From Cordylochernes scorpioides (taxonomy: Eukaryota > Arthropoda > Arachnida > Pseudoscorpiones > Chernetidae), in the NCBI GenBank assembly GCA_030710605.1, contig CP092868.1:30631363-30695362 (forward strand): 64,000 nucleotides of DNA, read 5' to 3'. Below are positions 12,936 through 55,004 of this stretch, one piece after another; positions within the stretch are counted from its first letter, which is position 1; each line of letters starts with the position of its first letter. Position numbers and translations under genes: made by a program. The notes under the pieces are model-generated. The model did no database searches. It was not told where the DNA came from and saw only the letters and a list, made by a program, of their open reading frames with translations.

Positions 12936-13081
12936 AACAAAAATAAACTTTGCTCAAGGAGCATGGAATTCTTGTAATCTTTACACAAGAGGATAAGAAA
13001 CAACAACAAAAGAAACTCTTTGATCCATGAAGCTATAAAGGAATATCAGAAAATAAAAGAAAACAAGACCTAATCCAAATA

Positions 13082-13143
13082 ATTTATTAGTGTGTGACGT
13101 TTCGGCAACAACATTGTCACCATCATCAGACAAAAGAATAAAT
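13082..13143 (-). ncRNA. Type I hammerhead ribozyme motif (PLE, left arm)
   Basis: Exact mirror of the right-arm motif: CTGATGA, stem II, GAAACGTC and both stem I halves are intact on the minus strand. Confidence 0.8.
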
Positions 13144-13279
13144 GAGAAAACATGTTACAGCAGGTTCTTATATAGTCCTGTTATCAAGTGTTTAAACAAG
13201 ATAACAGATAAGGAAAATAGTTTTTAAGTCAACTTGAAATATTCTTCTTAGAATTAAAAGTGGATTTTTTTTTTTTTTT

Positions 13280-13561
13280 CTAAATATAATTAAAGGCATA
13301 TCTGTAAATATCATTTATATTTCCCCTTTCTTCCATTCTATTAATTGAAGCACATGTCTTTTGGATGAAAAAGGCTTCTTTGAATTGTCTTTTGTAATAA
13401 TTTTTTTCATAGTCCAGTGTTTTTGGGTTTTCTAAATTGAATTTATTGTGTCCTGTGTCCCTTCTGTGTTCTACAAGAGCAGAATTTTGAATTCTATCCC
13501 ACTTCAGAGCATATTTATGGTTTTCCATCCTTTCTTTTAATGTTCTGGATGTCTGTCCCAC
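13280..13561 (-). pseudogene. PLE GIY-YIG endonuclease C-terminus, left arm
   Basis: Mirror copy of the right-arm frame with an identical 93-residue translation, so the inverted duplication is recent or homogenised. It has the same missing GIY half. Confidence 0.85.
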
Positions 13562-13607
13562 ATATCTTTGATATGAAGTTAAGTGTGAGAAGTGTGATCA
13601 AAGATAT

Positions 13608-13889
13608 GTGGGACAGACATCCAGAACATTAAAAGAAAGGATGGAAAACCATAAATATGCTCTGAAGTGGGATAGAATTCAAAATTCTGCTCTTGTAGAA
13701 CACAGAAGGGACACAGGACACAATAAATTCAATTTAGAAAACCCAAAAACACTGGACTATGAAAAAAATTATTACAAAAGACAGTTCAAAGAAGCCTTTT
13801 TCATCCAAAAGACATGTGCTTCAATTAATAGAATGGAAGAAAGGGGAAATATAAATGATATTTACAGATATGCCTTTAATTATATTTAG
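13608..13889 (+). pseudogene. PLE GIY-YIG endonuclease C-terminus, right arm
   Basis: Open frame reading YVGQTSRTLKERMENH, then LVEHRRDTGHNKF and EAFFIQK to a stop. YVG is the YIG half of the GIY-YIG motif, followed by the catalytic-type Arg and the His spacing of Penelope endonucleases. Just upstream in frame is KCEKC, the Cys pair of the PLE zinc motif. The GIY half and the reverse transcriptase are missing because the frame starts at the palindrome centre. The 93 codons show no internal stop. As it stands it is a truncated protein. Confidence 0.85.
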
Positions 13890-14022
13890 AAAAAAAAAAA
13901 ATCCACTTTTAATTCTAAGAAGAATATTTCAAGTTGACTTAAAAACTATTTTCCTTATCTGTTATCTTGTTTAAACACTTGATAACAGGACTATATAAGA
14001 ACCTGCTGTAACATGTTTTCTC

Positions 14023-14084
14023 ATTTATTCTTTTGTCTGATGATGGTGACAATGTTGTTGCCGAAACGTCACACACTAATAAAT
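14023..14084 (+). ncRNA. Type I hammerhead ribozyme motif (PLE, right arm)
   Basis: Core CTGATGA (14037-14043), a hairpin GGTGACAA/TTGTTGCC (stem II), then GAAAC and GTC (14063-14070). Stem I pairs ATTTATT with AATAAAT and TGT with ACA across an internal loop, typical of type I. Stem III is a loopless ACGU palindrome, so it can form only between two molecules. One unpaired T sits between the core and stem II in nearly all copies. Predicted cut after C14070. Confidence 0.8.
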
Positions 14085-14375
14085 TATTTGGATTAGGTCT
14101 TATTTTCTTTTATTATAATCTATAATCCAAATTGTGCTTTATCACGAATATCAGAAAAATATGCATCAACCAAGTACATATTTGATCTTCCAGTCATGGA
14201 TCATTCTCACAAAAAAAAATTGAAAATGCATTGGAACCCTATTATAATAACATCTTTTTATTTAAAAAAAACTTGGTTAAAATATATCTCTATGGTCCCT
14301 ATTGTTTCAATTGTGGTTATAACAGTATAAAATCAGGATATGCCCATGTTATTATTGTTTGTTACTTCACATGTG

Positions 14376-14655
14376 TAGACCGTTTTCGATTGCTACGACC
14401 CAGGTTCGATTCCCGCATTGGACACTTTTTTTTCTGATTTAAAAAAAAATGCTCCAATGGCTTCCGATTCTTGCAAAAGTCCAACCCCACCGAGCGAATG
14501 CATGTAACCAAATAGGGCTCTGGTACATTTGTAAGTGCAAAGTCAAACTGATTTTGAGATGTGTAGACATGTGGTGTACTTACAGTAAAAGCAGTCGCCA
14601 ACTTCTACCCACCATGATTATCATGGCTTGTACCACGTGTACAAGGAACAAAAAA
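14376..14655 (+). mobile_element. tRNA-derived SINE copy
   Basis: Box B GGTTCGATTCCCGCATTGG and the body through TGTACCACGTGTAC are present; the first part of the tRNA-like head is lost. Confidence 0.8.
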
Positions 14656-15139
14656 TCGTTTGTTACACATGCATTTCTACAATATTTGACTTATTCAGAT
14701 GACAAAATTTGGCAGCATATAGAGTGAAATAGTTAGGTCTAAAATAAGTATTATAGTTTTAATCCATAATATGCAAATTAATTTGATAACAGGACTTATT
14801 TGCATATATTCCATTAATTCATCATACTTAACATAATATTTGACCAACCCAAATGGAATTTTGATATACTAGTGTTAGGACTGGATAGTCACTGTCATAG
14901 TTTCAACTATAGACTATGCAAAATAGTCAGATAAAAACCTAATTTAATTTATAATGTGGCTTTATATGTTTTATTGTGCTTTTAATGTGGCTTTATGATT
15001 GTAAAACAACGTTTGACAATTTTTACCACAAATGTTTCTTTTGAATGAAAAATCATAATTTATTTTAAGGAAAAATAACGACTATTTCTATCCTTAGGGA
15101 TGAGGTATGAATTGTGAAGAATAATGATGAACGGAAAAA

Positions 15140-15220
15140 TAAAAGTGTCCAGGGATGGGAATTGAACCCACAGTGTTCGGCTTATCGGGGAGATGCCATG
15201 TCCGTTCGTTAAAACAAAAA
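15140..15220 (-). repeat. tRNA-like SINE relic
   Basis: Minus strand: GGCATCTCCCCGATAAGCC, then GGGTTCAATTCCCATCC, resembling a D-arm/box B pair. Not a folded tRNA gene. Confidence 0.4.
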
Positions 15221-15449
15221 CCAAATTTATCTACTCCATTTGTTTCACATACATTGCCATAATATTTGCTTTGTCAGGATGAACCTTTGACACAATATAG
15301 GGAATGAACATATTAATTTAAATGAGAAGGACAAAAGGTAAGGGGACAGGACGCAAAAGAAGGAACTATTTGTCACATGATGTTTTTTTTTTTGTGAAAA
15401 GGCCTAAAAATACTGTGTCTAGTGTCGCATTTTTAGACTTACATATGTA

Positions 15450-15753
15450 CAGTAGAACCTCCCTACGAGGACACCTCTTCCTAGGACTATTTTTATTGCC
15501 AAAATACCATTTTACTAAATAGCAGTTCTGTGGTAGAAAGACAACTCTCTTAGCTCTGCAACTAGGTGTTCTCTATTAGAGAGAAGTTCTATATACAGTA
15601 GAACCTCCATGAGAGGACACTCTTGCTAGAGGATACCTCTCTATAAAGGACAGTTTTCATCACCAAAATTACCATTTTTACTAATTAGCAACTCTCCAGT
15701 AAAAGGACACTTTGAATTTGTAACTGGGTGTCCTTTACAGAGAGGTTCTACTG
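15450..15753 (+). mobile_element. Two adjacent CAGTAGAACCTCC MITEs
   Basis: Copies at 15450-15592 and 15596-15753. Ends CAGTAGAACCTCC...GAGGTTCTACTG flanked by TA, typical of pogo/Tc1-like MITEs. Interior GAGGACAC..CTCT repeats fold back. Confidence 0.8.
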
Positions 15754-16209
15754 TATACTGAATTTCTTTTTATTAGTTTTTCTTTAAACATGCCTATAGA
15801 TATGTTCTTAATTCTAAATAATTTGACATTATGATTTTTTTTTATGTCAAAGATACTTTGTGGTACAGTCTTGGAATATTTCATATATAGAATCGCTGAA
15901 AGTTCCTAAGATAAGTTCTATAATGATACCTGGACAAAGAAGACTCCAAATAATTGACAATATTCACAAAAATGAAAAAATAGAATAAAATGCACAAAGT
16001 GAACAAATTTTAAAAAAGGAATCTCCTGATTGTGCAAATGAGAATGTTGCTGAAGTAGTTTGCACCATTTATCAAAATAAATTATCAACAAATTGTTGAT
16101 GTTTTAATTCTTCCAGAATTTTGGAAAAATACCTTTTCTTATGGAAAGGTATATATAGAGAAAGCTATGCAGAGTGCCATGAACAGATAAAAAGGAGAAA
16201 TATTTCAAT

Positions 16210-16412
16210 CTTATATGAACACAAGGTAATAAGACCAAATCCAATTAAATAAATAGTGTTGACGTTTTGGTAACAGCGTTGACTCCATTCAGTACTTTTG
16301 TCTGAAGATGGTAACAAAGCTGTTACCGAAACGTCACACACTATTTATTTGGATTTGGTCTTATTATTACTTTGTTTTTATAATCTATAATCCAAATTGT
16401 GCCTTATCAATC
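16210..16412 (+). repeat. PLE fold-back repeat with complete hammerhead core
   Basis: A partial left arm meets a complete right arm ending ...CAAATTGTGCCTTATC. The plus-strand hammerhead core is at 16291-16345. No target duplication was recognised. Confidence 0.7.
16291..16345 (+). ncRNA. Hammerhead motif, CTGAAGA subtype
   Basis: CTGAAGA (position 7 is free in the core), hairpin GGTAACA/TGTTACC, GAAACGTC, and stem I pairs AGTA/TATT and TGT/ACA around an internal loop. Confidence 0.7.
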
Positions 16413-16434
16413 TTATATGAAATTAATCCTGGTA

Positions 16435-16680
16435 GAATTCCAAATATGCAAATAAAGATTGACCTACTTTGAACACGCAATGATAGCAAATGGTTTAGAA
16501 AAGATGTTGATTTTGGGGAAAATTGGTGAGAGAAAGACCTGCAATGAGCTGGCTAGAATGGGTCAAGAAAGCTACCAGGTCACTGGAAGAGCTGCAAGTG
16601 ATGGTCAATAACAGATCAAATTTGAGACAATTTGTTCATATAGTCACCAAAATATGACTTGATGGAAGCTAACAAAGAAC
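16435..16680 (+). pseudogene. LINE-type reverse transcriptase C-terminal remnant
   Basis: A broken plus-strand frame recalls the F.H..R..GLEK..LGKI..R..R end of RTE/CR1-like proteins (YFEHAMIANGLEKMLILGKI), with stops and shifts. A second remnant is at 20680-20900. Confidence 0.55.
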
Positions 16681-16987
16681 TAACCTTTTCTCTATAAATC
16701 ATGGAAAGCCAACCATGTACACATTTCAGAATGATAGCCCTGTTAGTGTAGTAAAAGTTGTACCACAAAAAAATACTTTGGTCCTAAAGGCATCCGGACA
16801 AATCAAGAAAGGATGAGATGGATCAAGAAATGGATGCAAATAATAAACTATATGAAAAATAGAACTTTGTAAAAGTGCATATTAGGTGATAAAATGAAGA
16901 AAAAGATGCATCTCTTCTGAATGATGCAACTGAACACTTCTGACAGCTTGAGTCAAAAATGGCCAATTTTTTAAAGTTAATTGTTGG

Positions 16988-17137
16988 TTGTTAGGGCACA
17001 ATTTGGATTATAGATTATAAACACAAGGTAATAAGACCAAATAAATAAATAAATAGTGTGTGATGTTTCGGTAACAACGCCGTTACCGAAACGTCACACA
17101 CTATTTATTTGGATTTGGTCTTATTACCTTGTGTTAA
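16988..17137. repeat. PLE fold-back repeat, cores fused into one palindrome
   Basis: The arms meet at GTTTCGGTAAC...GTTACCGAAAC with no CTGANGA box; no target duplication was recognised. Confidence 0.65.
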
Positions 17138-17286
17138 TGAATGGTTAATATTTATTCCAATAGACAATTCAAAACCTTTATTGGCAATGGTTAACGAATA
17201 AATAAAAATGATGAAATAGCTACAAAAAGGGTGATGGATACATTCTTCAGCCAGAGGGCTTTCCCACCAAGATAGAATCCTCCTCC

Positions 17287-18110
17287 ATGCAGGGAAGCAA
17301 TCGCCTAGAGCAGAGACATGTTGTTTCTTATCCCCTTATGCAGAGATTACATGAATTCCAGGAGTCCATGCTCCTAGAGCAGAGACATGTTGCTGTTTCT
17401 TATCCCCTTGTGCAAAGATTACAGGAATTCCATGAGTCCATGCTCCTAGAGCAGAGACATGTTGCTGTTTCTTATCCCCTTGTGCAAAGATTACAGGAAT
17501 TCCATGAGTCCATGCTCCTAGAGCAGAGACATGTTGTTTCTTATCCCCTTATGCAGAGATTACATGAATTCCATGAGTCCATGCTCCTAGAGCAAAGACA
17601 TGTTGCTGTTTCTTATCCCCTTATGCAGAGATTACAGGAATTCCATGAGTCCATGCTCCTAGAGCAGAGACATGTTGCTGTTTCTTATCCCCTTGTGCAA
17701 AGATTACAGGAATTCCATGAGTCCATGCTCCTAGAGCAAAGACATGTTGCTGTTTCTTATCCCCTTGTGCAAAGATTACAGGAATTCCATGAGTCCATGC
17801 TCCTAGAGCAAAGACATGTTGCTGTTTCTTATCCCCTTGTGCAAAGATTACAGGAATTCCATGAGTCCATGCTCCTAGAGCAAAGACATGTTGCTGTTTC
17901 TTATCCCCTTGTGCAAAGATTACAGGAATTCCATGAGTCCATGCTCCTAGAGCAAAGACATGTTGCTGTTTCTTATCCCCTTGTGCAAAGATTACAGGAA
18001 TTCCATGAGTCCATGCTCCTAGAGCAAAGACATGTTGCTGTTTCTTATCCCCTTGTGCAAAGATTACAGGAATTCCATGAGTCCATGCTCCTAGAGCAAA
18101 GACATGTTGT
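17287..18110 (-). repeat. 72-bp minisatellite made from a LINE 3' tail
   Basis: Eleven units with the TTTCTTATCCCCTTGTGCAA core of the LINE tail seen (in this orientation) at 19730, 35790 and 56400, plus CATGCTCCTAGAGCAGAGAC. Units are 72 bp or 69 bp (one GCT lost), so one plus-strand frame stays open for 288 codons (LEQRHVAVSYPLVQ repeats). Coding is unlikely. Confidence 0.9.
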
Positions 18111-18142
18111 TATTTATAGATTGAAAAATTTCTGGGAGGAAA

Positions 18143-18318
18143 TTGATCCATAGAAGCATAGGGCGCCTCTCCCGTCAAAATAAACGTCAAAACCTGACGC
18201 CATCTATTGACAATCGCCGCAAACTAGCGGCCTCGGGTCGGTGACAAAGCCACAACACCAGATGGCATCAGGTTTTGACGTTTATTTTGACGGGAGAGGC
18301 GCCCTATGCTTCTATGGA
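18143..18318. repeat. Fold-back MITE, second copy
   Basis: Same arms and same centre, inverted. It lies at the right edge of the 72-bp minisatellite. Confidence 0.8.
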
Positions 18319-18439
18319 TGTTGTTGTTTTTTATCCCCTTGTGTAAAGATTACACGAATTCCAATGGAATGGGGTGTAGCTTTTGTTGATCATGGCACCA
18401 TGATCCAGGTACACTTTGGTGTAAGTCTGACTTTCAGCA

Positions 18440-18550
18440 GAGACATAAGGTAATAAGACCAAGTCCAAATAAATAGTTATGATGCTTCGATAACAGCATT
18501 GTTACCATTATTTGGTGTTATTATGTTTCTAATCTATAATTCAAATTGTT
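18440..18550 (-). repeat. Highly degraded PLE arm
   Basis: AAGGTAATAAGACCAAGTCC, a remnant of the stem II hairpin and AATCTATAATTCAAATTG are recognisable; the core is lost. Confidence 0.5.
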
Positions 18551-18627
18551 ACGGTACCAATCATCCCAAGTTGAAAATGGTGTCATATTACTAAATTCAA
18601 TGAAAAATTTCATGTTACATTTTTTTT

Positions 18628-18887
18628 GGGGGTCGGTGGAAGGCTGGTTCGATTCCCGCATTGGACACTTTTTTCTGATTTAAATTTTTTTAATTCTCCA
18701 ATGGCCCCCAATTCTTGCAAAAGTCCAACCCCACCAGCGAGTGCAAGTAACCAAACGGGGCTCTGGCATACTTTGTAAGTGCAAAGTCAAACTGCTTTTC
18801 ACATGTGTAGACATGTGGTGCACTTACAGTAAAAGCAGTCACTAACTACCCACCATGATTATCATGGCCCCCGTGTACTAGGGATAA
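18628..18887 (+). mobile_element. tRNA-derived SINE copy with internal deletion of the head
   Basis: GGGGGTCGGTGGAAGGCTGG joins directly to TTCGATTCCCG, removing the region between boxes A and B. Confidence 0.8.
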
Positions 18888-18892
18888 TTTAA

Positions 18893-19118
18893 TAATGAGG
18901 CACAATTTGGATTATAGATTATAAACACAAGGTAATAAGACCAAATCCAAATAAATAAATAGTGTGCGACGTTTCGGTAACAGAGTTGTTACCATCTTCA
19001 GACAATTCATGATGTGTAGATTTGATGATTCAGCACTTTTGTCTGAAGATGGTAACAACGCTGTTACCGAAAGGTCACACACTTTTTTATTTATTTGGAT
19101 TTGGTCTCATTACCTTGA
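18893..19118. mobile_element. PLE fold-back element with 12-bp target duplication
   Basis: Inverted arms carrying CTGAAGA-type hammerhead motifs, flanked by GGGATAATTTAA (18881-18892, 19119-19130). The left duplication overlaps the end of a SINE. The plus arm core has GAAAGGTC, damaging stem III. Confidence 0.8.
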
Positions 19119-19880
19119 GGGATAATTTAAAAAAAAAAAGTTACATTTTGTGTTATGCTACAACTAGCATTATGGCTCAGTCAACCAATCGAGTTCACAC
19201 AATCTTGCATATGATCAGTCATATCACTTCACCAACTAAAACATCTTTTTGATAGATTCAATTCCATAACTCTTCATGTAGGATGATTAGAAATCACCCC
19301 TGTATTGACGAGTGTCATTGCATGAAAGCATGGTATATAGCTTGGCTCTTCATTTGCCAAAACTATAACCAAAAACAATACTGACAAGATTTAGAACAGG
19401 CCATCTCAATCCATTGAAGATAGAAAAACACAACAAAATCTACTCCACTTTCCCAAAATGTAGCTTGACACCTGCAGCTCCAGAACACATTTTGGCTTGT
19501 ATTAGATGTACTAAACAGGACCTTTGGGAGAGGTAGCTGCTTATCATAAAACAACTCGAGGAGCATGGACTCATGGATTTCGTGTAATCTTTACACAAGG
19601 GATAAGAAACAACAACAACAGAACCATAAACATAGCTACTAATCTATCTATGCAAAGAAGATCAAAGTAATGCTTTTTTTAATGCAGTTAATAAATTGAA
19701 TGTGTTGAAGCATTTATTGTTGTTGTTGTTGTTGTTTCTTATCCCCTTGTGTAAAGATTACACGAATTCCATGAGGAAGCATTTATTGAAAGCAATAAGT
19801 GTCTTTATTGCCCACAGATATCATTCTGCCACATTTTTACAATATATTTGGTCAAAAATTTGTCTTAGGATACAAATATC

Positions 19881-20188
19881 TTTTCTTTTTTACTTATCCC
19901 TAGTACACTGGTACAGGCCATGATAATCATGGTGGGTAGTTAGCGACTGCTTTTACTGTAAGTGCACCACATGTCTACACATGTGAAAAACAGTTTGACT
20001 TTGCACTTAGAAATATGCCAGAGCCCTTTTTGGTTACTTGCACTTGCTAGTGGGGTTGGACTTTTGCGAGAATCGGGGGCCATTGAAGCATTTTTTTTTA
20101 AACAGAAAAAAGTATCCAATGCGGGAATCGAACCCGGGTCGTAGTGGTCGAAAACCAAACGGTTTAACCAGCCTTCCACCGACCCCCC
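19881..20188 (-). mobile_element. Full-length tRNA-derived SINE copy
   Basis: Complete from the T-rich tail complement to GACCCCCC. It lies in copy 1 of the segmental duplication. Confidence 0.88.
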
Positions 20189-22785: not shown

Positions 22786-22796
22786 GGTTGAATTTA

Positions 22797-25278: not shown

Positions 25279-25366
25279 AAATAAGGCACAATTTGGATTA
25301 TAAATACAAGGTAATAAGACCAAATCCGAATAAATGATTATTTGGATTTGGTCTTATTACCTTGTG
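25279..25366. mobile_element. 88-bp PLE mini fold-back with 13-bp target duplication
   Basis: Only the outer arms remain (AAGGCACAATTTGG... and ...TTACCTTGTG), with no ribozyme. TTTACTTATCAAG flanks it (25266-25278, 25367-25379). It is the same length as the copy at 47205-47292. Confidence 0.8.
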
Positions 25367-27872: not shown

Positions 27873-28093
27873 CACAAGGTAATAAGAACAAATCCAAATA
27901 AATAAAGTGTGTGACGTTACATAAGCTTTGTTACCATCTTCAGACTGAATGCTATGAAGTACTGAAAGATTGAGTACTTTTGTCTGAAGATGGTAACAAC
28001 GCTGTTACGGAAACATCACACACTATTTACTTATTTGGATTTGGTCTTATTACCTTGTGTTTATAATCTATAATCCAAATTGTACCTTATCAT
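27873..28093. repeat. PLE fold-back repeat, imperfect target duplication
   Basis: Inverted arms. The plus core is CTGAAGA (27984-27990) with GAAACATC, so the palindrome is lost. The flanks TTATTTGAAGTTAAA and TTATTTAAAGTTAAA differ at one base. Confidence 0.65.
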
Positions 28094-31278: not shown

Positions 31279-31516
31279 CAAGAAAATAAGACCTAATCCA
31301 AATAATTTATTAGTGTGTGACGTTCCGGTAACAAGATTTTCACCATCATCAGACAAAAGAGTAAATGATTTATCATTTATCTTTTACTCTTATCATTTAC
31401 TCTTTTGTCTGATGATGGTGACAATGTTGTTACCGGAACGTCACACACAAATAAATTATTTGGATTAGGTCTTATTTTCTTGTATTATAATCTATAATCC
31501 AAAATTGTGCTTTATC
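31279..31516. mobile_element. PLE fold-back element with 15-bp target duplication
   Basis: Two inverted arms (hammerhead-like at 31305-31366 minus and 31395-31456 plus), flanked by GTTATACTGTTAATA (31264-31278, 31517-31531). Both cores read GGAAC instead of GAAAC, the same change in each arm, so it predates or was copied during the inversion. Confidence 0.85.
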
Positions 31517-33313: not shown

Positions 33314-35010
<1,697 letters not shown>

Positions 35011-35301
35011 GTCCTTCAAATTGAGCTACATTATTATTTAGTGATTACACTACACTGCACTGTTTGATGGCTACAAAATAACCATTTTGAACTATTATAG
35101 ACGCGCATGATTATTTTAAAAATAAATCATACTAGCAAAACTAGTTCCAATTTCTTATAACAGATGACATTGTAATGCATCGTGTAAAAATACCAATTGG
35201 AGACTACAGTGTACTGTTTGATGGCTACAAAATGTCATTTGGTGACCACAACACCATTTGATGACTATAGCATCTATTGAGGCTGCTTCTTCTCAATATA
35301 G

Positions 35302-36350: not shown

Positions 36351-36684
36351 CTTGATAAGGCACAATTTGGATTATAGATTATGAACACAAGGTAATAAGA
36401 CCAAATCCAAATAAATAAATAGTGTGTGACATTTCGGTAACAGCATTGTTACCATCTTTAGACAAAAGTACTGAATGAGAAATTTTACCAAGCATGCTTT
36501 AAATAGTTACTGTTTATCTTCTTCTTATCTGCTATCTTGTTTACACACTTGATAAGAGTAACTATTTAAACTATGCTGCGGTAAAATTTCTTATTCAGTA
36601 CTTTTGTATGAAGATGGTAACAACGCTGTTACCGAAACATCACACACTATTTATTTATTTGGATTTGGTCTTATTACCTTGTGC
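36351..36684. mobile_element. PLE fold-back element with 9-bp target duplication
   Basis: Inverted arms with a stem-forming interior, flanked by TCACAAGAA (36342-36350, 36685-36693). The plus core has lost its first C (ATGAAGA) and the minus core reads CTAAAGA, so both ribozymes look dead. Confidence 0.75.
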
Positions 36685-40745: not shown

Positions 40746-40824
40746 AAAATTCTAAGGGTAACACCAATGTGTTACTATCCTGTTTAAAAAAAAAAAAAGA
40801 TATGTAGAGTATAACCTTGATGAT

Positions 40825-41121
40825 AAGGTACAATTTGGATTATAGATTAGAAACACAAGGTAATAAGACCAAATCCAAATAAATAAAGTGTGTGATGTTT
40901 CGGTAACGGCGTTGTTACCATCATCAGACAAAAGTAGTGAAGATTGTATAACCTCTTTAATTTAACTAACTAAATACGAGAAAATAAGACCTAATCCAAA
41001 TAATTTAATAGTGTGTGACATTTCGGTAACAGCATTGTTACCGAAACGTCACACACTATTTATTTATTTGGATTTGGTCTCATTACCTTGTGTTTATAAT
41101 CTATAATCCAAATTGTGCCTT
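40825..41121. repeat. Composite of two PLE fold-back repeats
   Basis: A minus arm with CTGATGA and GAAACATC (about 40886-40940), then a second inverted pair fused at GTTTCGGTAACAGC...ACCGAAACGTC near 41031-41050. Confidence 0.65.
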
Positions 41122-42199: not shown

Positions 42200-42690
42200 G
42201 ATAATTCTATTTTAGTTATCACATTCTAATCAAGTTTTCCAGTCATCCTTGCATGATGGTAACAAACATTTCTGAAATATCATACACTATTTATTTGGTC
42301 TTATTACCTTTTCTTTCTAATCTATAATCCAAATTGTACCTAATCAGAGAATTCAATTTTAGCTATCACATTCTAATCAACTTTGCCAGTCATCCTTGCA
42401 TGATGGTAACAAACATTACCAAAACATCACACACTATTTATTTGGTCTTATTACCTCTTCTTTCAATAATCCAAATTGTACCCAATCAGAGAATTCTAAT
42501 TTAGTTATCACATTCTAATCAACTTTGCCAGTCATCCTTGCATGATGGTAACAAACATTACTGAAACATCACACACTATTTATTTGGTCTTATTACCTTT
42601 TCTTTCTAATCTATAATCCGAATTGTACCTTATCAGAGAATTCTGTTTGAGTTATCACATTCTAATCAAGTTTTCCATTCATCCTAGTAG
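42200..42690 (+). repeat. Tandem array of decayed PLE right arms, about 145-bp unit
   Basis: Units start with AGAGAATTCTA-like sequence at about 42200, 42347, 42489 and 42636. The first three carry GATGGTAAC...GAAA(C/T)ATCA and the TATTTGGTCTTATTACC tail. Divergent copies in direct order. Confidence 0.75.
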
Positions 42691-42767
42691 ATAGAATAAC
42701 CAACAACCTTCCTGTATTTCTGGAGGATATATATGGGGCTGAGTGGGATATAGAAGACAGGACTCAC

Positions 42768-43023
42768 ATTCTTAGACTCCAGGGTCATGGTGCGGTTGAC
42801 AGGGTCCACGATGGAGTGTTCGCTGGCGTAGCAGTCACCGCCCCCACCTAGCAGTTTATTGGCCCAGTTGGGGAGCCCCCAGCGAGTGGACAGCAGTCTG
42901 TGGCTCACCAGCAGGCCCCCTGGAGTCACCTTCCTCTCCACCACATCCAGTCCTACCACAGCTGTGTTCAGAGGGTTGGGGTACTTCCTCCAGCACGCCT
43001 GGGTGATCTTTTCCCAGGGGTGT
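42768..43023 (-). CDS. slmo: slowmo/PRELID3 coding exon 2 (PRELI domain core)
   Basis: Encodes 85 residues after one base completing the split codon: HPWEKITQACWRKYPNP, then VVGLDVVERKV, SHRLLSTRWGLP, and ASEHSIVDPVNRTMTLESKN. These are hallmark blocks of the PRELI/MSF1 lipid-transfer domain, covering its first strands and helix. The acceptor reads TGTGTTGTGCAG on the minus strand and the donor is GTGAGT after the Asn codon. A LINE 3' fragment begins only about 40 bp upstream of the acceptor, so little original intron remains there. The GC-rich exon stands out from its AT-rich surroundings. The long plus-strand frame over the same interval is an antisense shadow. Confidence 0.95.
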
Positions 43024-43064
43024 CTGCACAACACACACACCATGTCACTTACTTCTGTCATATT

Positions 43065-43615
43065 GACTAACCATGACTGGTACAGAGCAGGAGGGACAAG
43101 TTCTGTCCTCCCAAGAGAACAACAGTCTTTGATTTCCAGACTCAAGTCTGGTCATCTACGGACAATGACTTTCCAAAATGGTTGCACAGTTTTCCCACTA
43201 TGTACTAAGTGCAATTCTCAACGTGCAACCCCAAAACACATTATTGACTGTATTGACTCATCCATTGATGAGCTCTACACTTCCCCAGCAGACACCATCA
43301 AAAATACTTTACAAGTTTGGTACCCTAATATGATTGAGTGGAGATAAGAAAGAAGAAGAAGACATGGATGGAAGACAGGATGAGCAGCGTTTGTATACCA
43401 TGTTAGGAGCCACTGCACATTGCGTCTGTTCCTCATGTCAGAAGCGGCCATTTCTTTTGGAGCTAAGTCGGCCTGCCACTGAGTAGTGCTCCCAGTCTTA
43501 ATGACAAAGGCAGATGCATTCTACTTCACCCAGTCATGGTGGTTGTCAAACAGACACCATCAAGGGTCACAACTTGATATTCTAATATGATTGAGTGGAG
43601 ATAAGAAAGAAGAAC
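43065..43615 (+). pseudogene. Non-LTR retrotransposon C-terminus and 3' UTR
   Basis: A plus-strand frame reads DWYRAGGTSSVLPREQQSL, then FPLCTKCNSQRATPKHIIDC (a CX2C...H...C zinc motif at the end of LINE-type pol proteins), ending MIEWR and stop, followed by the GATAAGAAAGAAGAAG tail and a second 3' UTR piece. It starts about 40 bp from the slowmo exon 2 acceptor. Homologous pieces at 28370-28690, 49160-49770 (SINE-split), 48600-48695 and 50897-51180 (-). Only the C-terminal end is present. Confidence 0.8.
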
Positions 43616-44813: not shown

Positions 44814-44814
44814 G

Positions 44815-45370: not shown

Positions 45371-45379
45371 GGGCCCTAA

Positions 45380-45606: not shown

Positions 45607-45759
45607 AAACACAAGGTAATAAGACCAAATCCAAATAAATAATTAGTGTGTGACCTGTCAGTAACAACGCTGTTATCGAAACATCACACGCTATTTATTT
45701 ATTTGGATTAGGTCTTATTACCTTGTGTTTATTATCCATAATCCATATTGTGCTTTATC
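45607..45759. mobile_element. PLE fold-back element with 12-bp target duplication
   Basis: Arms meet at a fused GTAACAACGCTGTTATCGAAAC hairpin without the CTGANGA box. AATATCTATGTA flanks it (45595-45606, 45760-45771). Confidence 0.8.
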
Positions 45760-45892
45760 AATATCTATGTACAAAAGTTGAGACTATATACCTTGTTTTT
45801 CATGCATAGAACACGGTGAAGAAGTAAAATATACCATGATAAAGCACAATTTGGATTATAGATTATAATAAAAGAAAATAAGACCTAATCCA

Positions 45893-45954
45893 ATTTATTA
45901 GTGTGTGACGTTTCGGCAACAGCGTTGTTACCATCATCAGACAAAAGAATAAAT
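45893..45954 (-). ncRNA. Hammerhead ribozyme motif, intact core
   Basis: Minus strand: CTGATGA, hairpin GGTAACA/TGTTGCC, GAAACGTC, and stem I halves ATTTATT/AATAAAT and TGT/ACA. All conserved core bases are present. Confidence 0.8.
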
Positions 45955-46177
45955 GAAAAAAATAGTACAGCGCAAGTTTTTAAATAGTACTGATATCAAG
46001 TGTTTAAACAAGATAACAACAAGTTGTCTTTAAAAACTATTTTTCCTTATCTGTTATCTTGTTTAAACACTTGAATAACAGTACTATTTAAGAACTTGCT
46101 GTACTATTTTTTCTCATTTTTTAGACCATTCTCTAATGGCCAATTAGTCGAGTTAAGAAATGAATGAATTTTTTCTC

Positions 46178-46239
46178 ATTTATTCTTTTGTCTGATGACG
46201 GTGACAATGTTGTTGCCGAAATGTCACACACTAATAAAT
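46178..46239 (+). ncRNA. Hammerhead motif, core partly changed
   Basis: CTGATGA and stem I are intact, but the segment after stem II is GAAATGTC, breaking the ACGU palindrome. The usual extra T after the core is C here. Confidence 0.6.
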
Positions 46240-46328
46240 TATTTGGATTAGGTCTTATTTTTTTTAAAATATACCATATAAATTTAAAATAATGTCATCT
46301 TGCTACAATTGTCTCAACAAAACTGCTG

Positions 46329-46989: not shown

Positions 46990-47160
46990 CCAATCTATAA
47001 TCCAAATTCAAGAAAATAGGACCTAATCCAAATAATTTAATAGCGTGTGATGTTTCGGGATGATGATGGTAACAATGCTGTTGCCGAAACGTCACACACT
47101 ATTAAATTATTTGGATACGGTCTTATTTTCTTGTATTTATAATCCAAATTGTGCTTTATT
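46990..47160. repeat. Degraded PLE fold-back repeat
   Basis: The arms meet at GGGATGATGATGG, where the first two core bases are changed; the right arm keeps GAAACGTC. Confidence 0.6.
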
Positions 47161-47204
47161 ATATAATCCAAATTGTACCTGAAACAAAACATTGCCCTTT
47201 AAAA

Positions 47205-47292
47205 TTGATAAGGCACAATTTGGATTATAGATTATAAACACAAGGTAATAAGACCAAATCTGGACCGGATTTGGTCTTATTACCTTGTGTTT
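47205..47292. mobile_element. 88-bp PLE mini fold-back with 14-bp target duplication
   Basis: Outer arms only, without a ribozyme core, flanked by ATTGCCCTTTAAAA (47191-47204, 47293-47306). Confidence 0.85.
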
Positions 47293-47894: not shown

Positions 47895-48076
47895 TAGAGT
47901 AGAACAACCTACCATGAAAGAACACTCCCGTTAGAGGACACCTCTCCACAATGGACAGTTTTCATCATTCAAATTTCCATTTTTGCTAAATTATTAATTC
48001 TCCGGTAAGAGGACATCTTTCTCTACAGGATACTTTTGCTCAACAACTAGGTCTCCTTTATAGAGAACTTCTACTG
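47895..48076 (+). mobile_element. Diverged CAGTAGAACC MITE
   Basis: Left end worn; the GAACTTCTACTG right end and TTAGAGGACACCTCTCC interior are recognisable. Confidence 0.7.
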
Positions 48077-48113
48077 TAAGCAGTGAAAACTTTTCATTTT
48101 ATTATCCCTATTT

Positions 48114-48263
48114 TAAAAGAAAATAAGACCTAATCCAAATAATTTATTAGTGTGTGACGTATCGGCAACAACATTGTCACCATTATCATGACAAAAGAAT
48201 AAAATAAATTATTTGGATTAGGTCTTATTTTATTATAATCTATAATCCAAATTGTGCTTTATC
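48114..48263. mobile_element. PLE fold-back element with 13-bp target duplication
   Basis: One degraded minus-strand hammerhead arm plus the opposing outer arm, flanked by ATTATCCCTATTT (48101-48113, 48264-48276). The core is damaged (GATAC in place of GAAAC, and a broken CTGA box). Confidence 0.8.
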
Positions 48264-48335
48264 ATTATCCCTATTTATTTATATCAACACACAAAACGCG
48301 ATATCCCGGCTAGGGATAATTGTGTCAATTAAGTT

Positions 48336-48598
48336 GATCCCTAGTACACATTGTACAGGCCATGCTGATCATGAAGAGTAGTTAGTGAGCAACTTTTACT
48401 GCAAGTGCACTATGTAAACTCAGGTAGAAGCAGTTTGACTTTTGCACTTACAAGGGTGCCAGAGCCTCATTTTAGTTACTGTATTCACTGGTGGGGTTGG
48501 ACTTTTGCAAGAAATGGGGGTCATTGAAGCATTTTTTTTTTTTTTTTCTTCTTCAGAGAAAATAGCTTAATGTGGGATTCAATTCTTGGTCAAGTTAA
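48336..48598 (-). mobile_element. Diverged tRNA-derived SINE copy
   Basis: ATCCCTAGTACACATTGTAC body; ends near a decayed box B. Confidence 0.72.
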
Positions 48599-48737
48599 TC
48601 AAATCAAACTATCTCTACTCATCCCCAACAAACACCATCAAAAGTCTCAAGCTTGACACCCTAATATGATTGAGTGGAGATAAGAAAGAAGAATCAAACT
48701 ATGGACATAACACTTTGAAGACTGTAAAATCACATCT

Positions 48738-49022
48738 ACACTCATGGACAAAACTTAAGGAAGCGAAAAGTCTTTGTTGGTCATCTATTTTTTTGAAGGA
48801 GACAGAGGCAATTTTGTGCACACTTGGTTATTATGTGTTCCTTCAATAAAGGTCAATGTGTATCAAATATCTTTCAGAGTTATTGTGTGAATCCCGATAT
48901 ACATGCTAAAAGGTACAACTTCTTCAAGTTTTGTCCATGAGTGTATCTTTCAGAGTTTTATTGTCTGAATCCCGATATACATGGTAAAAGGTACAACTTC
49001 CTTAAGTTTTGTCCATGAGTGA
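48738..49022. mobile_element. Same MITE family, partly duplicated right end
   Basis: CACTCATGGACAAAACTTAAGG at left; two right ends GTCCATGAGTG about 70 bp apart. Confidence 0.75.
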
Positions 49023-49159
49023 ATATAAGGAGTAACAAGACTAGATGGGGAAGATGAAGATGAGAAACTTGTTCACAAATCAGTTGAGCTATAAGAAGCC
49101 ACAGTTTATTCCAGCATTGGTGGTGTTGGCATGGATCATATCAGACTTGATAAGGTCAT

Positions 49160-49770
49160 GATACTATCTACAGAGCAGGAGGGACAAGCACCAGTTCTGT
49201 CCTCCCAAGAGAACAACAGTCTTTGATTTCCAGACATAAGTCTGGTCATCTAAGGACAATTTTTTTTTGCTTATCCCTAGTGCACGTGGTACAGGCCATG
49301 ATAATCATGGTGGGTAGTTAACGACTGCTTTTACTGTAGGTGCACCACATGTCTACACATGTGAAAAGCAGTTAGACTTTGCACTTACAAATGTGCCAGA
49401 GCCCCGTTTGGTTACTTGCACTCGCTGGTGGGGTTGGACTTTTGCAAGAATCGGGGGCCATTGGAGCATTTTTTTTAAACAGAAAAAAAGTGTCCAATGC
49501 GGGAATCGAACCCGGGTCCTAGTGGTCGAAAACCAAACGGTCTAACCAGCCTTCCACCGACCCCCTCTAAGGACAATGACTTTCCAGAATGGTTGCAAGG
49601 TTTTCTCATTATGTACAAAGTGTAATTGTCAACTTTCAACCCTAAGACACATTATTGACTCATCCATTGATGAGCTCTACTCTTCCCCCGCAGACACCAT
49701 CAAAAGTCTCAAGCTTTACAAGCTTGACACCCTAATATGATTGTTGAGTGGAGATAAGAAAGAAGATGAT
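49160..49770 (+). pseudogene. Non-LTR retrotransposon C-terminus split by a SINE
   Basis: The parts at 49160-49249 and 49578-49770 are continuous once the SINE and its target duplication are set aside. Confidence 0.75.
49261..49565 (-). mobile_element. Full-length tRNA-derived SINE with 12-bp target duplication
   Basis: 305 bp. On the minus strand it starts GGGGGTCGGTGGAAGGCTGG (A-box-like), has box B GGTTCGATTCCCG, a body with CCACCATGATTATCATGG and ends GTACTAGGGATAAGCAAAA. TCTAAGGACAAT flanks it (49249-49260, 49566-49577). It inserted into a LINE fragment. This copy defines the family here. Confidence 0.92.
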
Positions 49771-49951
49771 GATATCTGATTAGTTATGATCTACTTCATT
49801 GCTTCCTCAATGCCTTTTTTTGACATTTTATTATCAAAGTTTGCATAATCCTCAATGGCAAAAAAAAAGTATAAATTTTTTTTATAACCTATATTCTGCT
49901 TATTGAGTTCTTTTTTCCTGCTGATCCCAAATGATATTGATTTCCCATATA

Positions 49952-50322
49952 CAATGGAACTTATCTCCAAAGGACAAAACCTAGTTTCAGAGCCAAGGTG
50001 TCCTTTAAAGAGAGGTTTCCTCTTACCGGAGAGTTGCTGAATAGTGAAAATGGTAATCTTGATATGAAAACTGTCCTTTGTAGACAGATGTCTTCTAGCG
50101 TGAGTGTCCTCTCATGGAGGTTCTACTGCATAAAATATATAATACAGTAGAACCTCCCTGTAAAGAACAACACTTAAATGCAGAGCCAAAGTGTCCTTTA
50201 TGGAGAGGTTTCCTCTTACTGGAGAGTTGCTGAATAGTAAAAATGGTAATTTTACAAATGAAAACTGTCCTTTAAAGAGAGATGTCCTCTAGCGTGAGTG
50301 TCCTCTCATTAAGGTTCTACTG
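49952..50322 (-). mobile_element. Two adjacent MITEs of the CAGTAGAACC family
   Basis: Copies at 49952-50128 and 50145-50322, both with interiors reversed relative to 25805. Confidence 0.8.
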
Positions 50323-50896
50323 TATTATCTAAATCAATCGCAATCCTAGTAATCAAGTGGTCAAAGATTAAAATCTCAATGATTGAATAGTAGAAACATA
50401 AGGTAACACGACCAAATCCCAATTGAGTCATATCTTGATTCTTAATATTGTAGCGTAGAAATCAAGCCTTGAAATATCCTAAGATGTAAAAGTATTTATT
50501 GATGATGTCACAGCGACGAGTCGACAATTATTAACAAGTCAGCAAAACTATTTACAGCTAGAGAATCTTAAGCAAGCAAGCAAAGAAATATTTTAAAGAT
50601 GATTTCACAAATACAGATTAATATATATTTTTATAATCTGTTGAATATAATTTCATTGAATAATATTAAATTAAATAATAAAATATTTCGTCGCCACAAT
50701 ATTATTTAGCCCTTTTTTTTTTGGGATGTGGAAGCAAAAATTGTCGCTTCGAAGATTTAGTTTGTAGGATCGGGAATCAACTTTAGTCCACATGCTATAA
50801 AAATCCTTTCAGTGAGGCAGTCAATGCTTAGCTCATTAAAATATGACATTGTGGACTCATTTCTGTCTCTCAGCATGGGAATCTTTAATATTTTAG

Positions 50897-51180
50897 TCTT
50901 CTTCTTTCTTATCTCCACTCAATCATATTAGGGTATCAAGCTTGTAGAACTTGAGCCTTTTGATGGTGTCTGCTTGGGAAGAGTAGATCTCATTAATGGA
51001 AGAGTCAATACAGTCAATAATGTGTGTTTGGGGTTGCAGATTGGGAATTGTACTTAATACATAGTGAGAAAACATTGCAACCATTCTGGAAAGTCACTGT
51101 CTGTAGATGACCAGAGTTAAGTATGGAAATCAAAGACTGTTGTTCTCTTGGGGGGACAGAACCAGTGAATATTTTAGTTT
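50897..51180 (-). pseudogene. Non-LTR retrotransposon C-terminus, minus strand
   Basis: Begins with the CTTCTTCTTTCTTATCTCCA tail complement. The minus frame reads PREQQSLISILNSGHLQT and FSLCIKYNSQSATPN; the Cys motif is partly lost. Confidence 0.75.
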
Positions 51181-51282
51181 GCTGGCTCTGTTGACTTGTG
51201 AAAGACACTGGTAACATTTCCCCATATTTTTAATTAAAAAGAATTTACACAAGAAGTGTCATTAATGGACTTTAAAAATATT

Positions 51283-51403
51283 ATAGTCGAACTGCTTTTC
51301 ACATGTGTAGACATGTGGTACACTTACAATAAAAGCAGTCGCCTACTTCTACCCACCATGATTATCATGGCCTGTACCACGTGTACTAGGGATAAGCAAA
51401 AAT
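51283..51403 (+). mobile_element. 5'-truncated SINE (3' third)
   Basis: From ACTGCTTTTCACATGTGTAG to GTACTAGGGATAAGCAAAAA. Confidence 0.8.
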
Positions 51404-51723
51404 ATATATATATTATAAAAGCAGACATTCTACATCCAGGCTTTTCCACAACAACATAAAATCTCAAGTAGTGTTGTTAGTTTGGAGTTCAACGACTGTA
51501 ATGAGATTGCTGATGTCTTAGCAAAGACAGCTGTTCAATGTCATCTTAGAATTTAAGCTATCTCCATCTATGATAAGTCACAATTTGGATTATAGATTAT
51601 AAACACAAGGTAATAAGACCAAATCCAAATAAATAAATAGTGTGTGATGTTTCGGTAACAGCGTTGTTACCATCCTCAGACAAAAGTACTGAATGAAGAT
51701 GAATTTTGTCTGAAGATGGTAAC

Positions 51724-51847
51724 TGTTTTAATGTCCATCCATACAGAGTTCAAAATAATAACTGACTCACCCGTGCAGCCAAGGTCACGCTCCGCTGTGT
51801 CACGTGGGAAAACATACGTAGATGTTCTCGTACATGTTCTCAGCACA
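51724..51847 (-). repeat. 3' LTR of the RT-less Ty3 element
   Basis: 124 bp, the same by eye as the other LTR. A purine tract abuts its inner edge and GTAAC its outer edge. Confidence 0.9.
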
Positions 51848-51909
51848 TCCCCCTTTTTAAGATTTGAAATATATATATATACATTACAAACTTTAAATGC
51901 ATAATATAA

Positions 51910-53922
51910 TTAATAATGAAGGCGATCCACAGGTTTAACAATTCGTCCACTCCGGGTTCTTATCTGGCCGTCTTCTGAGTCGTTAGAGGGATAATCCACA
52001 ACTGGGGTCTTTTCATTTTCAACCAGTTCCTCCCCCGAAAAGGTCGGCGTCGATGGGTCGGCTGGATATTGCACTGTAACTCCTTTTCGTAGATGGAACC
52101 TGTTTCGACGTAAAGTCCCAACTGGAGTATCAACCAAATATGACCTTGGTGTCGATGCCTTCTGCTTTACAATCCCCCAGGTTCGCATATCTGTAATCCA
52201 AACAGTGTCACCTTCGGATAGCTCCTCCATGTCCGTAGCTCCGCAGCGTCGATCATATCTGGATTTCATATCCTTTCTCCTTCTCCCCTCCTTTCTTTTC
52301 AGGGTCTGAGAGTCCACCAACTTTGGATTAAGATTCTCTGGTGCAATTGGCAAGGTCGTTCGGAGTTTACGTCCCATGAGAAGCTCAGCAGGGCTGTAAC
52401 TGTTCTCCAAGGGGGTCGATCGATACTCCAGGAGTCCAAGCGATGGGTCTTGATTTTTCTTGAGGATCAACTTAGCAATTTTCACACCTGCTTCTGCCAT
52501 CCCATTGCTCTGCGGGAATCGAGGACTTGAAGTGACATGTTGGAATCCGTACTGCCTTGCGAAATTTGCAAATTCACGAGCAGCTCCAAATTGCGTCCCA
52601 TTATCGCTTACAACAGTTTCTGGTATTCCATGTCGGGCAAATATGGATTTGCAACTACGCACCACCACATTGGCTGTGAGCCGATCCAGCTGAATAATTT
52701 CAGGAAAGCGAGAATAATAGTCAATGACGACTAGATACCACTTATTCTCGAACTTGAACAAATCCATTCCAATCTTTTGCCACGGTCGTGTAGGAAAGTT
52801 GGTTGGTATCAAAGGTTCATGTTTTGAGGCGGCTTCCTGGATACAGACACTGCACTTTCTGACCGTTTCCGCGATCTCCTCCGAAATTCCAGGCCACCAT
52901 ACCGTCTCACGTGCGCGAAGTCTTGTTTTTGTAATCCCGAAGTGCCCAGCGTGCAACTTATCTAGGATCTCCAGTTTCATACTTGCTGGAATAACAAGAC
53001 GACAGCTACGCATCAGTAGTCCATTTTGAACGCCGAGTTCATCCTTGACATGCCAATAAGAGAGCAGAGCCTGTGACATCTTCTTCTTATCTGGCCAGCC
53101 TTGCTCAAGGTAGTTGACTACTGCTTTCAGGGTCGTATCTTCTTGTTGAGCTTCAAAAATCTTCGTCAACATCTCGTCTTTGATCGGGTTAATTCTCGTC
53201 GCAACCACTTCAATTCGCCTCGCCAGGTTCAAGAGCTCACATGCCCGGCGACTCAGAAGAGGTTCACTCAAACGACGAATGACATAAATCTTCTCCTTGA
53301 TTTCATAACTGCCATTTCGCAGCGTTGATATAAACATACCCATAGTCTGAAGTTCGGAGAATTCAGCAGCTCTAAGGTTGATATCACTTTCCACTAGTCG
53401 TTGCTGTCCCATTATCTTCTTGAAGAGACACAGAGGAACACATGTAACATCCGCCTGGGAGTCGAGCTTGAACTTCAGCTGTTTCCCGTTCACTTGGATT
53501 TCTGCTGTCCACCGCCTCCTGCACTCGTCTTCATCATCATCGAGATTAGATGAATCCTCCACAGCTGAGACCTCCAGGAGAAAACCAACTTCTTCATCAA
53601 GTTCAGAAACTGCTTTGACTTCCGCAGTCTTCGCCTGCTTATCTGGGCAGCAATTTGCAAAATGGCCAGTTTTTGAACATAGGTTACATCTTTGTCCTTC
53701 AGCACGGCAAGCCTGTCCTTCCCTGTGGGTGAAACCTCCGCATTTTGAACATCGTGATCTTGTTTTGGCTGACTTCTCCTTCTTCCTCGAAGGCTGCTGT
53801 TGTTGTTTCGGTGATTGTTTCTTCGAGTTGAACTTCACCTGATTGACCTTTTGGCTTGTTGAGGGACGCTGCAGGTCGACTTGCTGCTGTCGAACGGCTT
53901 CCTGCTGTCGAACCATTTTCAC
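51910..53922 (-). pseudogene. Ty3 nucleocapsid-protease-integrase frame with RT/RNase H deleted
   Basis: A 670-codon open frame. In order: two knuckles (CSKCGGFTHREGQAC and CNLCSKTGHFANCC); protease reading KLDSQADVTCVP, where the usual DSG or DTG is DSQ, so the active site is altered; a direct jump in frame, near ACELLNLARRIEVV, to the RNase H-integrase linker; then integrase with HAGH and CSVC zinc ligands, the catalytic Asp in MDLF, the second in SDNGTQFG, and Glu in SNGMAEAG. No YxDD box or RNase H motif is present. Expected full pol would be roughly 500-600 residues longer. Movement would need enzymes supplied in trans. Confidence 0.92.
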
Positions 53923-53996
53923 CGCCTTTCCAAAGTCAGTTCGCTGTCCAACTGCATTCTTTCAGATAAAGCTTTGTCCCTCACTCCAACCACTAT

Positions 53997-54398
53997 TCAG
54001 TCACGGATCAACTGCTCATGAAGACCCTCAAATTCGCAACTATCAGCCAATTTGTACAATGAAGTGATGAATTCGTCCACTGGCTCCCGATCCTCTTGGA
54101 TTCTTGAATTAAATTTCGCGCGTTCGTAGATAATATTCTTTCTGACACAGAAGTGGCTGTCGAACGCCTTGAGGACGGAATCAATTTTCGTTGCCTCTTC
54201 CTCCTTTTCGAACTTGAAGGTCCTGAATATATCATCCGCGCGGTCGCCCATCAAGTACATGAACAAATCGATCTTGTCCGCCTCCTCTTTCTTCTTCATT
54301 CCACTGACCACGAGGTATCGTTCGAATCTCTTCCTCCATTTGGGCCATTCGTTGGGAGTCGAGAAGTCGAAAGTTTCTGGAGGTTGAATCTGAGCCAT
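53997..54398 (-). pseudogene. Ty3 gag, N-terminal part, ended by a premature stop
   Basis: Frame of 133 codons from MAQIQPPETFDFSTP; the W..W..RF spacing and the DRADDIF and EPVDEFITSLYKLAD segments are typical of Ty3 gag capsid. It stops at a TGA (53997-53999) after EQLIRD, while gag-like sequence continues beyond. The downstream zinc-knuckle region lies in another frame, so a small frameshift also separates them. In intact relatives gag runs on into the nucleocapsid knuckles. Confidence 0.85.
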
Positions 54399-54480
54399 GT
54401 TGAATTATCTTCCAAGGTACACAAAAATCGATATTTTGCAATATACGGGTTCGTATTTTATCCAGTTATCGCTGCCACCA

Positions 54481-54604
54481 TGTTTTAATGTCCATCCATA
54501 CAGAGTTCAAAATAATAACTGACTCACCCGTGCAGCCAAGGTCACGCTCCGCTGTGTCACGTGGGAAAACATACGTAGATGTTCTCGTACATGTTCTCAG
54601 CACA
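54481..54604 (-). repeat. 5' LTR of the RT-less Ty3 element
   Basis: 124 bp, the same by eye as the copy at 51724-51847 and bounded by GTAAC on its outer side. Confidence 0.9.
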
Positions 54605-55004
54605 GTAACAATGTTGTTACCAAAACGTCACACACTATTTATTTGGATCTGGTCTTATTATCTTGTGTCTATCTCCATCTATCCGGTGAGAAATGTGAAA
54701 GAAGACAATCACAGCTGATACCTGTCCGAGAGCCCTAGAGATACCAACCTACTCTGTGAAGGTCACACGTTTACCTAGCCTCAAAACTGGGCACACAAGG
54801 AAGATAGGATTCAAGGATGAGGACACTTTCACAACTTGCACAACTTGGGGGGAGACAATCTTGTTCCAAAATCACGTTATTAGGTACCGCTCAAAAAGAT
54901 CAACCTAGTTTATAATAATTGCAACAATGAATAATATGTGAATGTATAGTAATATGTATATAATAACATATATTAATATATGAAGGTTATTCACATATTA
55001 AACA

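Follow-up and report, generated by a model that had tools for sequence, protein, structure and literature searches.

Head-to-head fold-back units in the genome of Cordylochernes scorpioides are probably two-sided insertions of a Penelope-like element

Results

Fold-back units in the window

The 64,000-nucleotide stretch analysed here (the window; Cordylochernes scorpioides, assembly GCA_030710605.1, contig CP092868.1, positions 30,631,363 to 30,695,362 of the forward strand) carries numerous short units with inverted arms which, judged by their sequence, are pseudo-long-terminal-repeat (pLTR) fragments of a young and very abundant Penelope-like element (PLE) with a putative GIY-YIG endonuclease. 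PLEs are a third class of retroelement, and the anatomy of these units bears on how this poorly understood class moves.

A preliminary description of the window had listed ten fold-back units, each with its own 9-15 bp direct repeat. This held up when a flanking duplication score was tested at 22 window places, using 500 random flank pairs from the window as the null: nine of the ten units scored at least 12, a value reached by 2/500 random pairs, and the unit at 36351 scored 9, which 8/500 reached. As had been proposed, the ten units inserted separately, each producing a target duplication of its own. The motif AAGGCACAATTTGGATTATA, which had been taken for the shared inverted arm, proved to be something else. 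It was found 24 times in the window (up to three mismatches; 0.02 expected) and lies at one end only of each of the ten units, where we call it the tail. The arm common to both sides is the sequence adjoining the tail, which ends in CCTTGTG or CTTTTA, and the tailless unit ends begin at or near CACAAGG or TAAAAG.

The unit at 13054..14145 (+ strand, subfamily B) has its tail (14114..14141, +) on the right and none on the left, and is flanked by the 13-bp duplication GAATATCAGAAAA at 13041-13053 and 14146-14158. The PLE endonuclease gene is represented by its 3' part in both arms, of which pieces of 305 and 225 nt are 100% complementary. The C-terminal 104 codons (P0001) lie at 13575..13889 (+) and are mirrored in the left arm on the opposite strand; a minimal hammerhead motif of subfamily B lies in the sense arm at 14037..14070 (+), mirrored at 13096-13129 (minus). 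The tail is also on the right in the + strand units 31279..31516 (subfamily B; 15-bp duplication GTTATACTGTTAATA), 45608..45759 (12-bp duplication AATATCTATGTA), whose arms meet within the hammerhead stem II palindrome, and 48114..48263 (subfamily B; 13-bp duplication ATTATCCCTATTT). On the minus strand the tail is on the left in 18893..19117 (subfamily A, no tail on the right; duplication AGGGATAATTTAA, 13 bp exact and 16 with one mismatch as scored; hammerheads at 18968-19001 (-) and 19043-19076 (+)), 36351..36684 (subfamily A; duplication TCACAAGAA, 9 bp exact and 12 with one mismatch as scored), 45838..46264 (subfamily B; 13-bp duplication TAAAATATACCAT) and 51572..54668 (14-bp duplication CTATCTCCATCTAT at 51558-51571 and 54669-54682), the last being split by a Gypsy-type element with an integrase open reading frame (ORF) at 51910-53961 (minus). 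Two further minus strand units with left tails, 25279..25366 (13-bp duplication TTTACTTATCAAG) and the shortest unit, 47205..47292 (88 bp; 14-bp duplication ATTGCCCTTTAAAA), contain no hammerhead. The idea that PLE hammerheads are carried by the units or gave rise to them was supported.

All ten listed units are real and their total was too low, as the window holds about 12 further pieces of the same PLE family. Three of the 22 places tested are additional duplication-flanked units scoring at least 13, all on the + strand with the tail on the right: 16220..16406 (no tail on the left; duplication TCAATCTTATATGAA; an uninterrupted paralogue of the target was found), 27873..28092 (duplication TTTATTTRAAGTTAAA, one mismatch) and 47009..47161 (duplication TATAATCCAAATT), which sits inside the tail of an older copy and whose right end the automatic caller misplaced. 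Eight other tested places, such as 16990, 28908, 39055, 40977 and 55162, scored at most 8, and a single arm at 40822-40945 is flanked by a 9-bp repeat. The high local density that had been noted was also confirmed: the exact tail is found four times in the 64 kb, at about eight times its mean density in the genome.

The source element

The genome comprises 2.62 Gb in 24 contigs, and copies were counted as exact matches. The tail occurs 19,395 times and the hammerhead core pattern 19,397 times, with no occurrence of either reversed control. Searching with P0001 (104 residues) gave 150 scored matches genome-wide, and 29 among the matches listed, including the window's own, are 100% identical, indicating that the PLE family is young. 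A PLE had been proposed as the source of the units, and this was borne out. At L103 (sampled loci are numbered L001 to L161) a longer frame contains a GLIY...YVG motif read by eye, and a 393-codon frame ahead of the endonuclease contains YVDD; we take these to be the PLE motifs of the GIY-YIG endonuclease and the reverse transcriptase (RT), respectively. The best match of the RT-endonuclease fragment in a PDB sequence search was a weak one to a group II-like RT (E 0.94), and the structure model of P0001 was too poor for use (pLDDT 40.7).

The layout of the element can be read at L161, where two 848-codon frames are separated by the end of an endonuclease gene, a TATA-like box, the hammerhead, an inner site p, an outer site T and the start of the long frame. 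This is the pLTR and partial tandem arrangement of PLEs, with a truncated endonuclease copy leading into the pLTR and then into the long frame. Features of PLEs present in this genome are the pLTR, an optional one-sided tail of 30-40 bp, inverted pLTRs, a minimal hammerhead and target duplications. The head-to-head architecture extends from 88 bp to several kb and is also found in a pair bearing two 848-codon frames. Because the same architecture spans this range, the short units are, as far as sequence can tell, short products of PLE insertion and not a separate small element.

The hammerhead core has its stem III reduced to ACGT, a predicted likeness to the dimer-type minimal PLE hammerheads reportedly described by Luense, Weinberg and Breaker in 2017. 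Rfam gave no match in the window at the gathering score, hammerhead included. The RNA fold of 18968-19076, within unit 18893, has a z-score of -11.6. Since the sense strand of this unit folds into one long hairpin, we see no sign that the hammerhead takes part in making the units, and in them it looks like passenger sequence.

Below the Rfam cut-offs, window positions 18964-19080 and 17045-17112 matched mir-2513 (52.2 bits, against a cut-off of 89) and mir-5856 (42.6 bits, against 90) on both strands; a weak match of fold-back units to mir-5365, confined to one strand, was likewise below the curated cut-off. These three families may include PLE fold-backs mistaken for microRNA precursors. At six loci (L104 1933-2676, L113, L114, L126, L131 and L146) the element ends at the putative transcription start (TTTCTCA) or close to it and gives way to other sequence, containing a MAPSRKKKK-type open frame in L104, L113 and L114 and, by eye, CCHC-like knuckles in L146. 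The L104 frame had no Pfam match, and such copies may be composites or may carry a second ORF of a PLE subfamily.

Tails, duplications and centres

To the window we added 161 loci, of which L001-L028 came from a search with a one-tailed unit and L029-L078 mostly from one with the exact tail; the window, the hammerhead-centred loci and the endonuclease pairs are free of selection for the tail. In total, 181 pairs were reduced to 141 by dropping 40 with near-duplicate flanks, and 74 of these had a duplication score of at least 10. Exactly one tail was present in 66 of the 74, and two others had one tail together with an opposite end 12-20 bases short; independent ends would allow at most half of the units to be one-tailed. 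By sample, the one-tailed units were 8/9 in the window (the ninth was re-read as one-tailed), 4/5 in the hammerhead-centred, 21/23 in the query-based and 33/37 in the tail-centred loci. Furthermore, among 30 head-to-head endonuclease pairs, 28 were examined after two were set apart as segmental copies by their spacing and frame lengths. Both ends were readable in 22 of the 28; each of these carries a single tail, and a duplication was recognised by eye in every one. In the remaining six at least one gene copy has no readable end after it. Two tails at L107/L108 were rejected as an end, since the element's own gene start lies beyond the tail there, as in L161.

Target duplications are not confined to the window, as 81/155 pairs scored at least 10, compared with 8/155 when flanks were mismatched, and uninterrupted target paralogues were found for 14 of the 74 units, four of them inside element repeats. 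The duplications are 11-20 bp long and centred on 13, with 51/66 at 12-15 bp. No target motif distinguishing the side of the tail was found beyond AT-richness. A duplication was rare around isolated single arms (4/60, compared with 1/60 for the null), and of the four repeats two consist of element letters.

These data bear on whether the units could be DNA transposons of the fold-back or MITE (miniature inverted-repeat transposable element) type, which would account for inverted arms and target duplications. Such elements have equivalent terminal inverted repeats and a fixed duplication length, whereas here 66 of the 74 scored units have the tail on one end and lack it on the other, duplication and inner lengths both vary, and the arms of long copies contain an endonuclease gene. 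We rejected this candidate and consider it the most improbable of the explanations weighed, with a negligible chance of being correct.

Orientation was equally regular. Adjacent endonuclease matches less than 12 kb apart were 30 '-+', 3 '++', 1 '--' and 0 '+-' (among the 150 scored), and adjacent hammerheads within 1 kb were 16 '-+', 3 '++', 1 '--' and 0 '+-' (first 100 listed), so that among the matches listed opposed neighbours were head-to-head in 46/46 cases (30/30 and 16/16). The centres where the two arms meet were compared in the 72 of 141 units that keep both hammerheads. None of the 72 shared an identical centre, and only one of 603 compared pairs of similar length reached a score fraction of 0.8, although the arm pieces were alike (median score 0.84). 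Because the centres are unshared, the fold-back is apparently not the mobile unit and is made anew at each insertion.

This result speaks directly to the proposal in the preliminary description that a compact inverted-arm RNA or DNA form, supplied in trans by a PLE in the manner of a retrozyme, is itself mobile. The units are indeed short, numerous and mostly non-coding, and the hammerhead core is intact at its thousands of genomic places. Against it stand the unshared centres, the occurrence of this architecture in copies whose frames have 848 codons, and the scarcity of head-to-tail order, seen in only 4/20 adjacent hammerhead pairs among the matches listed. We regard a mobile fold-back as very improbable. 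An animal retrozyme was likewise rejected as an identity for the units, since these are head-to-tail tandems of type I hammerheads and the neighbours here are predominantly '-+' with unshared centres.

One centre contained foreign sequence. At L095 (334-452) a complete 5S rRNA (114.3 bits) followed by a T run separates the two arms of a unit whose 13-bp duplication is perfect, which points to an RNA template and suggests that the polymerase, on reaching the template end, jumped to another RNA before joining. Among 40 further loci searched with Rfam, two tRNA-like matches were obtained in L074, neither of them tied to a unit centre.

Comparison of the two arms

The two arms of a unit resemble each other more than arms drawn at random would. 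A G/A variant could be read in both arms of 23 of the 28 endonuclease pairs and was G/G in 18, A/A in five and mixed in none, where about eight mixed pairs were expected. Of the duplication-scored units, 65 could be classed by arm type, giving 54 AA, 10 BB and one AB (about 17 mixed expected), and nine were unclassed. Additionally, a rare internal duplication is present in both arms of L105/L106. The positions at which the arms stop also agree: among 49 one-tailed units with both arms within the reference, the Spearman correlation was 0.62, the median difference was 12 bases versus 35 after shuffling, and none of 2000 shuffles was as close.

Arm ends in the tail-centred sample were concentrated at -88 to -84 (21/124), about 31 bases below the TATA-like box, with a second peak at -64 to -62 (19/124), at the edge of the stem II palindrome, and a third at -31 to -29 (10/124). 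The arm without the tail was longer than the tail arm in 25 of the 49 units, shorter in 20 and equal in four; among all 101 units it was longer in 60, shorter in 34 and equal in seven, with extremes such as -20 versus -119.

Shared variants, similar arm lengths and palindromic centres, for instance within stem II, would also follow from self-priming, in which a cDNA started at T folds back, copies itself, stops at p and joins the left flank. The stop at p, which is our own addition to the published idea, would be explained if the tail part were still held in the RNA-protein complex. In such a snap-back the tailless arm should reach no further inward than the tail arm, yet it was the longer one in about half of the 49 units, and the 5S rRNA of L095 lies between the arms and is absent from the tailless arm. 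On the arm lengths and this uncopied 5S rRNA we rejected self-priming as the sole route, and overall we consider it unlikely. Two-sided priming is favoured instead by four observations taken together: one tail per unit as a rule, centres that are not shared, variants common to both arms, and the captured 5S rRNA.

Other repeats and genes in the window

Three single arms with tails lie head-to-tail, 142-147 bp apart, at 42255-42635 and form a small tandem array, unlike the fold-backs; in L034 (1499-1605) a 35-bp tail piece is present in three head-to-tail copies. Two copies of another inverted-repeat element (ATAGAAGCATAGGGCGCCTCTCC...) were found at 3388-3582 and 18146-18319, and two minisatellite-like stretches with long open frames at 17215-18153 and 33392-35067. 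A frame with a PRELI-like domain (42684-43151, minus; E 3.3e-28) would be a host gene exon or pseudogene within the repeat cluster. Lastly, among the contigs whose lengths were compared, size falls with contig number except for the last, contig 24 (180 Mb), which is perhaps a sex chromosome.

Discussion

Our analysis suggests that the fold-backs are ordinary PLE insertions. Their probable mechanism is two-sided target-primed reverse transcription in which one RNA source is copied from two adjacent starts. The duplications, mostly of 12-15 bp, are what a staggered cut of the target would leave, and each side bears a copy running inward, giving the head-to-head pair. One copy begins at the outer site T (the end of GTGCCTTATCA) and the other at the inner site p, about 30 bases upstream of T at the end of CCTTGTG or CTTTTA. 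Both stop near the same template position and are joined at a centre that varies between insertions, at times with filler or other RNA. These features can be read from the anatomy of the units: the head-to-head order, the two fixed outer starts and the short duplication argue that each side of the staggered cut primed its own copy. Furthermore, T and p may be the counterparts of the adjacent reverse-transcription start sites known in vitro from the Anolis PLE, and the template for both strands would be a single RNA molecule, or several RNAs from a common source, with each site used once, so that exactly one tail would result.

The difference between short and long units could be explained by the layout of the template. 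In the mRNA, the open frame would be immediately preceded by the hammerhead, p and T. Copying begun at these sites and continuing as far as the 5' terminus of the RNA, placed about 31 bases below the TATA-like box, would produce arms of about 90 plus 30 bases, a length that coincides with the largest peak of arm ends; in other short units copying would end at the stem II palindrome. A start at the second copy of these sites, downstream of the gene, would give the long units.

We also considered a stricter form of the model, in which a single RNA molecule templates both strands and its two start sites are each taken once by two enzyme subunits on both cut ends. The tail would then correspond to the spacing of two docked polymerases, exactly one tail would be the rule, and the near-palindromic stem II, where arm ends are concentrated, might also aid strand joining at the DNA level. 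We put this forward tentatively, as a possibility that falls somewhat short of probable.

Several points weigh against two-sided priming from one source, or against the regularity on which it is built. Among the 74 scored units, six whose repeats consist of element letters were judged to be mis-scored and put aside, two of them having been scored as tailless; of the six, only window 47009-47161 was re-read, and it is one-tailed and sits in an older tail. Before duplication scoring, the 155 raw-aligned pairs were 108 one-tailed, 16 tailless, four two-tailed and 27 with a shortened end; the four two-tail calls (L071, L013, L053 and L004) were one-tailed when read by eye, and the 16 tailless ones stand as called. 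The 17 hammerhead-centred units were 10 one-tailed, L083 with two tails, L090 with none and five with a shortened end; L087 also looks tailless, and L083 and L090 are without a clear duplication. When no duplication was required, mixed arm types rose to 4/105 classed units, including window 40973-41121. For the 22 long pairs the agreement of stops (Spearman 0.57) takes frame lengths as a proxy. The transcription start is placed by spacing, and the account of short and long units is built on the layout and the end peak. Pfam gave no match to the endonuclease fragments or to the partial RT-endonuclease protein. Furthermore, in the part of the Anolis study available, the in vitro start sites were the same for both strands, which does not predict a one-tail rule (PMC11167929). 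Occupation of both sites on one RNA is the simplest account; as an alternative template, there may have been two sister RNAs whose sites are chosen in an ordered way.

The insertion steps that follow initial priming were left for validation in the available text of a 2024 in vitro study (PMC11167929), and with tens of thousands of exact end-sequence copies, many of them simply bounded, this genome lets the PLE reaction be followed much as in an in vivo assay. Earlier publications already describe tails, inverted pLTRs and, in vitro, extension of both strands; what this genome would add is a single use of each start site per insertion, exceptions being few, and a common source for the two strands. 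Neither a one-tail rule nor the use of one RNA for both strands was found stated in the accessible portions of the open-access PLE literature (PMC11167929, PMC3846280, PMC7229834, PMC6431247, PMC8969392, PMC12910113); key papers on PLE structure and hammerheads lay outside this scope, and we claim no priority. The one-RNA idea, if true, makes a sharp prediction for other PLE hosts. Annotators should be aware that fold-backs of this kind are not necessarily small autonomous elements and can look like microRNA hairpins.

Comparison with known systems

One of the closest parallels is Poseidon of Anolis carolinensis, a GIY-YIG PLE with a hammerhead and AT-rich targets, for which the available part of the published account describes cutting and extension of both target strands in vitro from two adjacent internal starts whose interval is the tail (PMC11167929). 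In Poseidon these starts lie within the ORF and genomic copies are tandem, whereas here they lie before the ORF (L161) and copies are head-to-head; the same text, as far as available, states no rule of one tail per insertion.

The Penelopes of the rotifer Adineta vaga, from what is accessible of their description, share inverted pLTR pairs, an optional one-sided tail of 31 bp, head-to-head palindromes, short duplications and mobilisation in trans, and differ in having few copies and duplications of 8-10 bp; their head-to-head form was tentatively attributed to self-priming on an antisense template (PMC3846280). Animal retrozymes with type I hammerheads, in the portion of the source at hand, are similarly short non-coding DNAs with hammerheads and target duplications of more than 4 bp, but they are head-to-tail tandems with canonical hammerheads and circular RNAs, in contrast to the inverted units of Cordylochernes scorpioides with their minimal hammerheads and unshared centres (PMC7229834).

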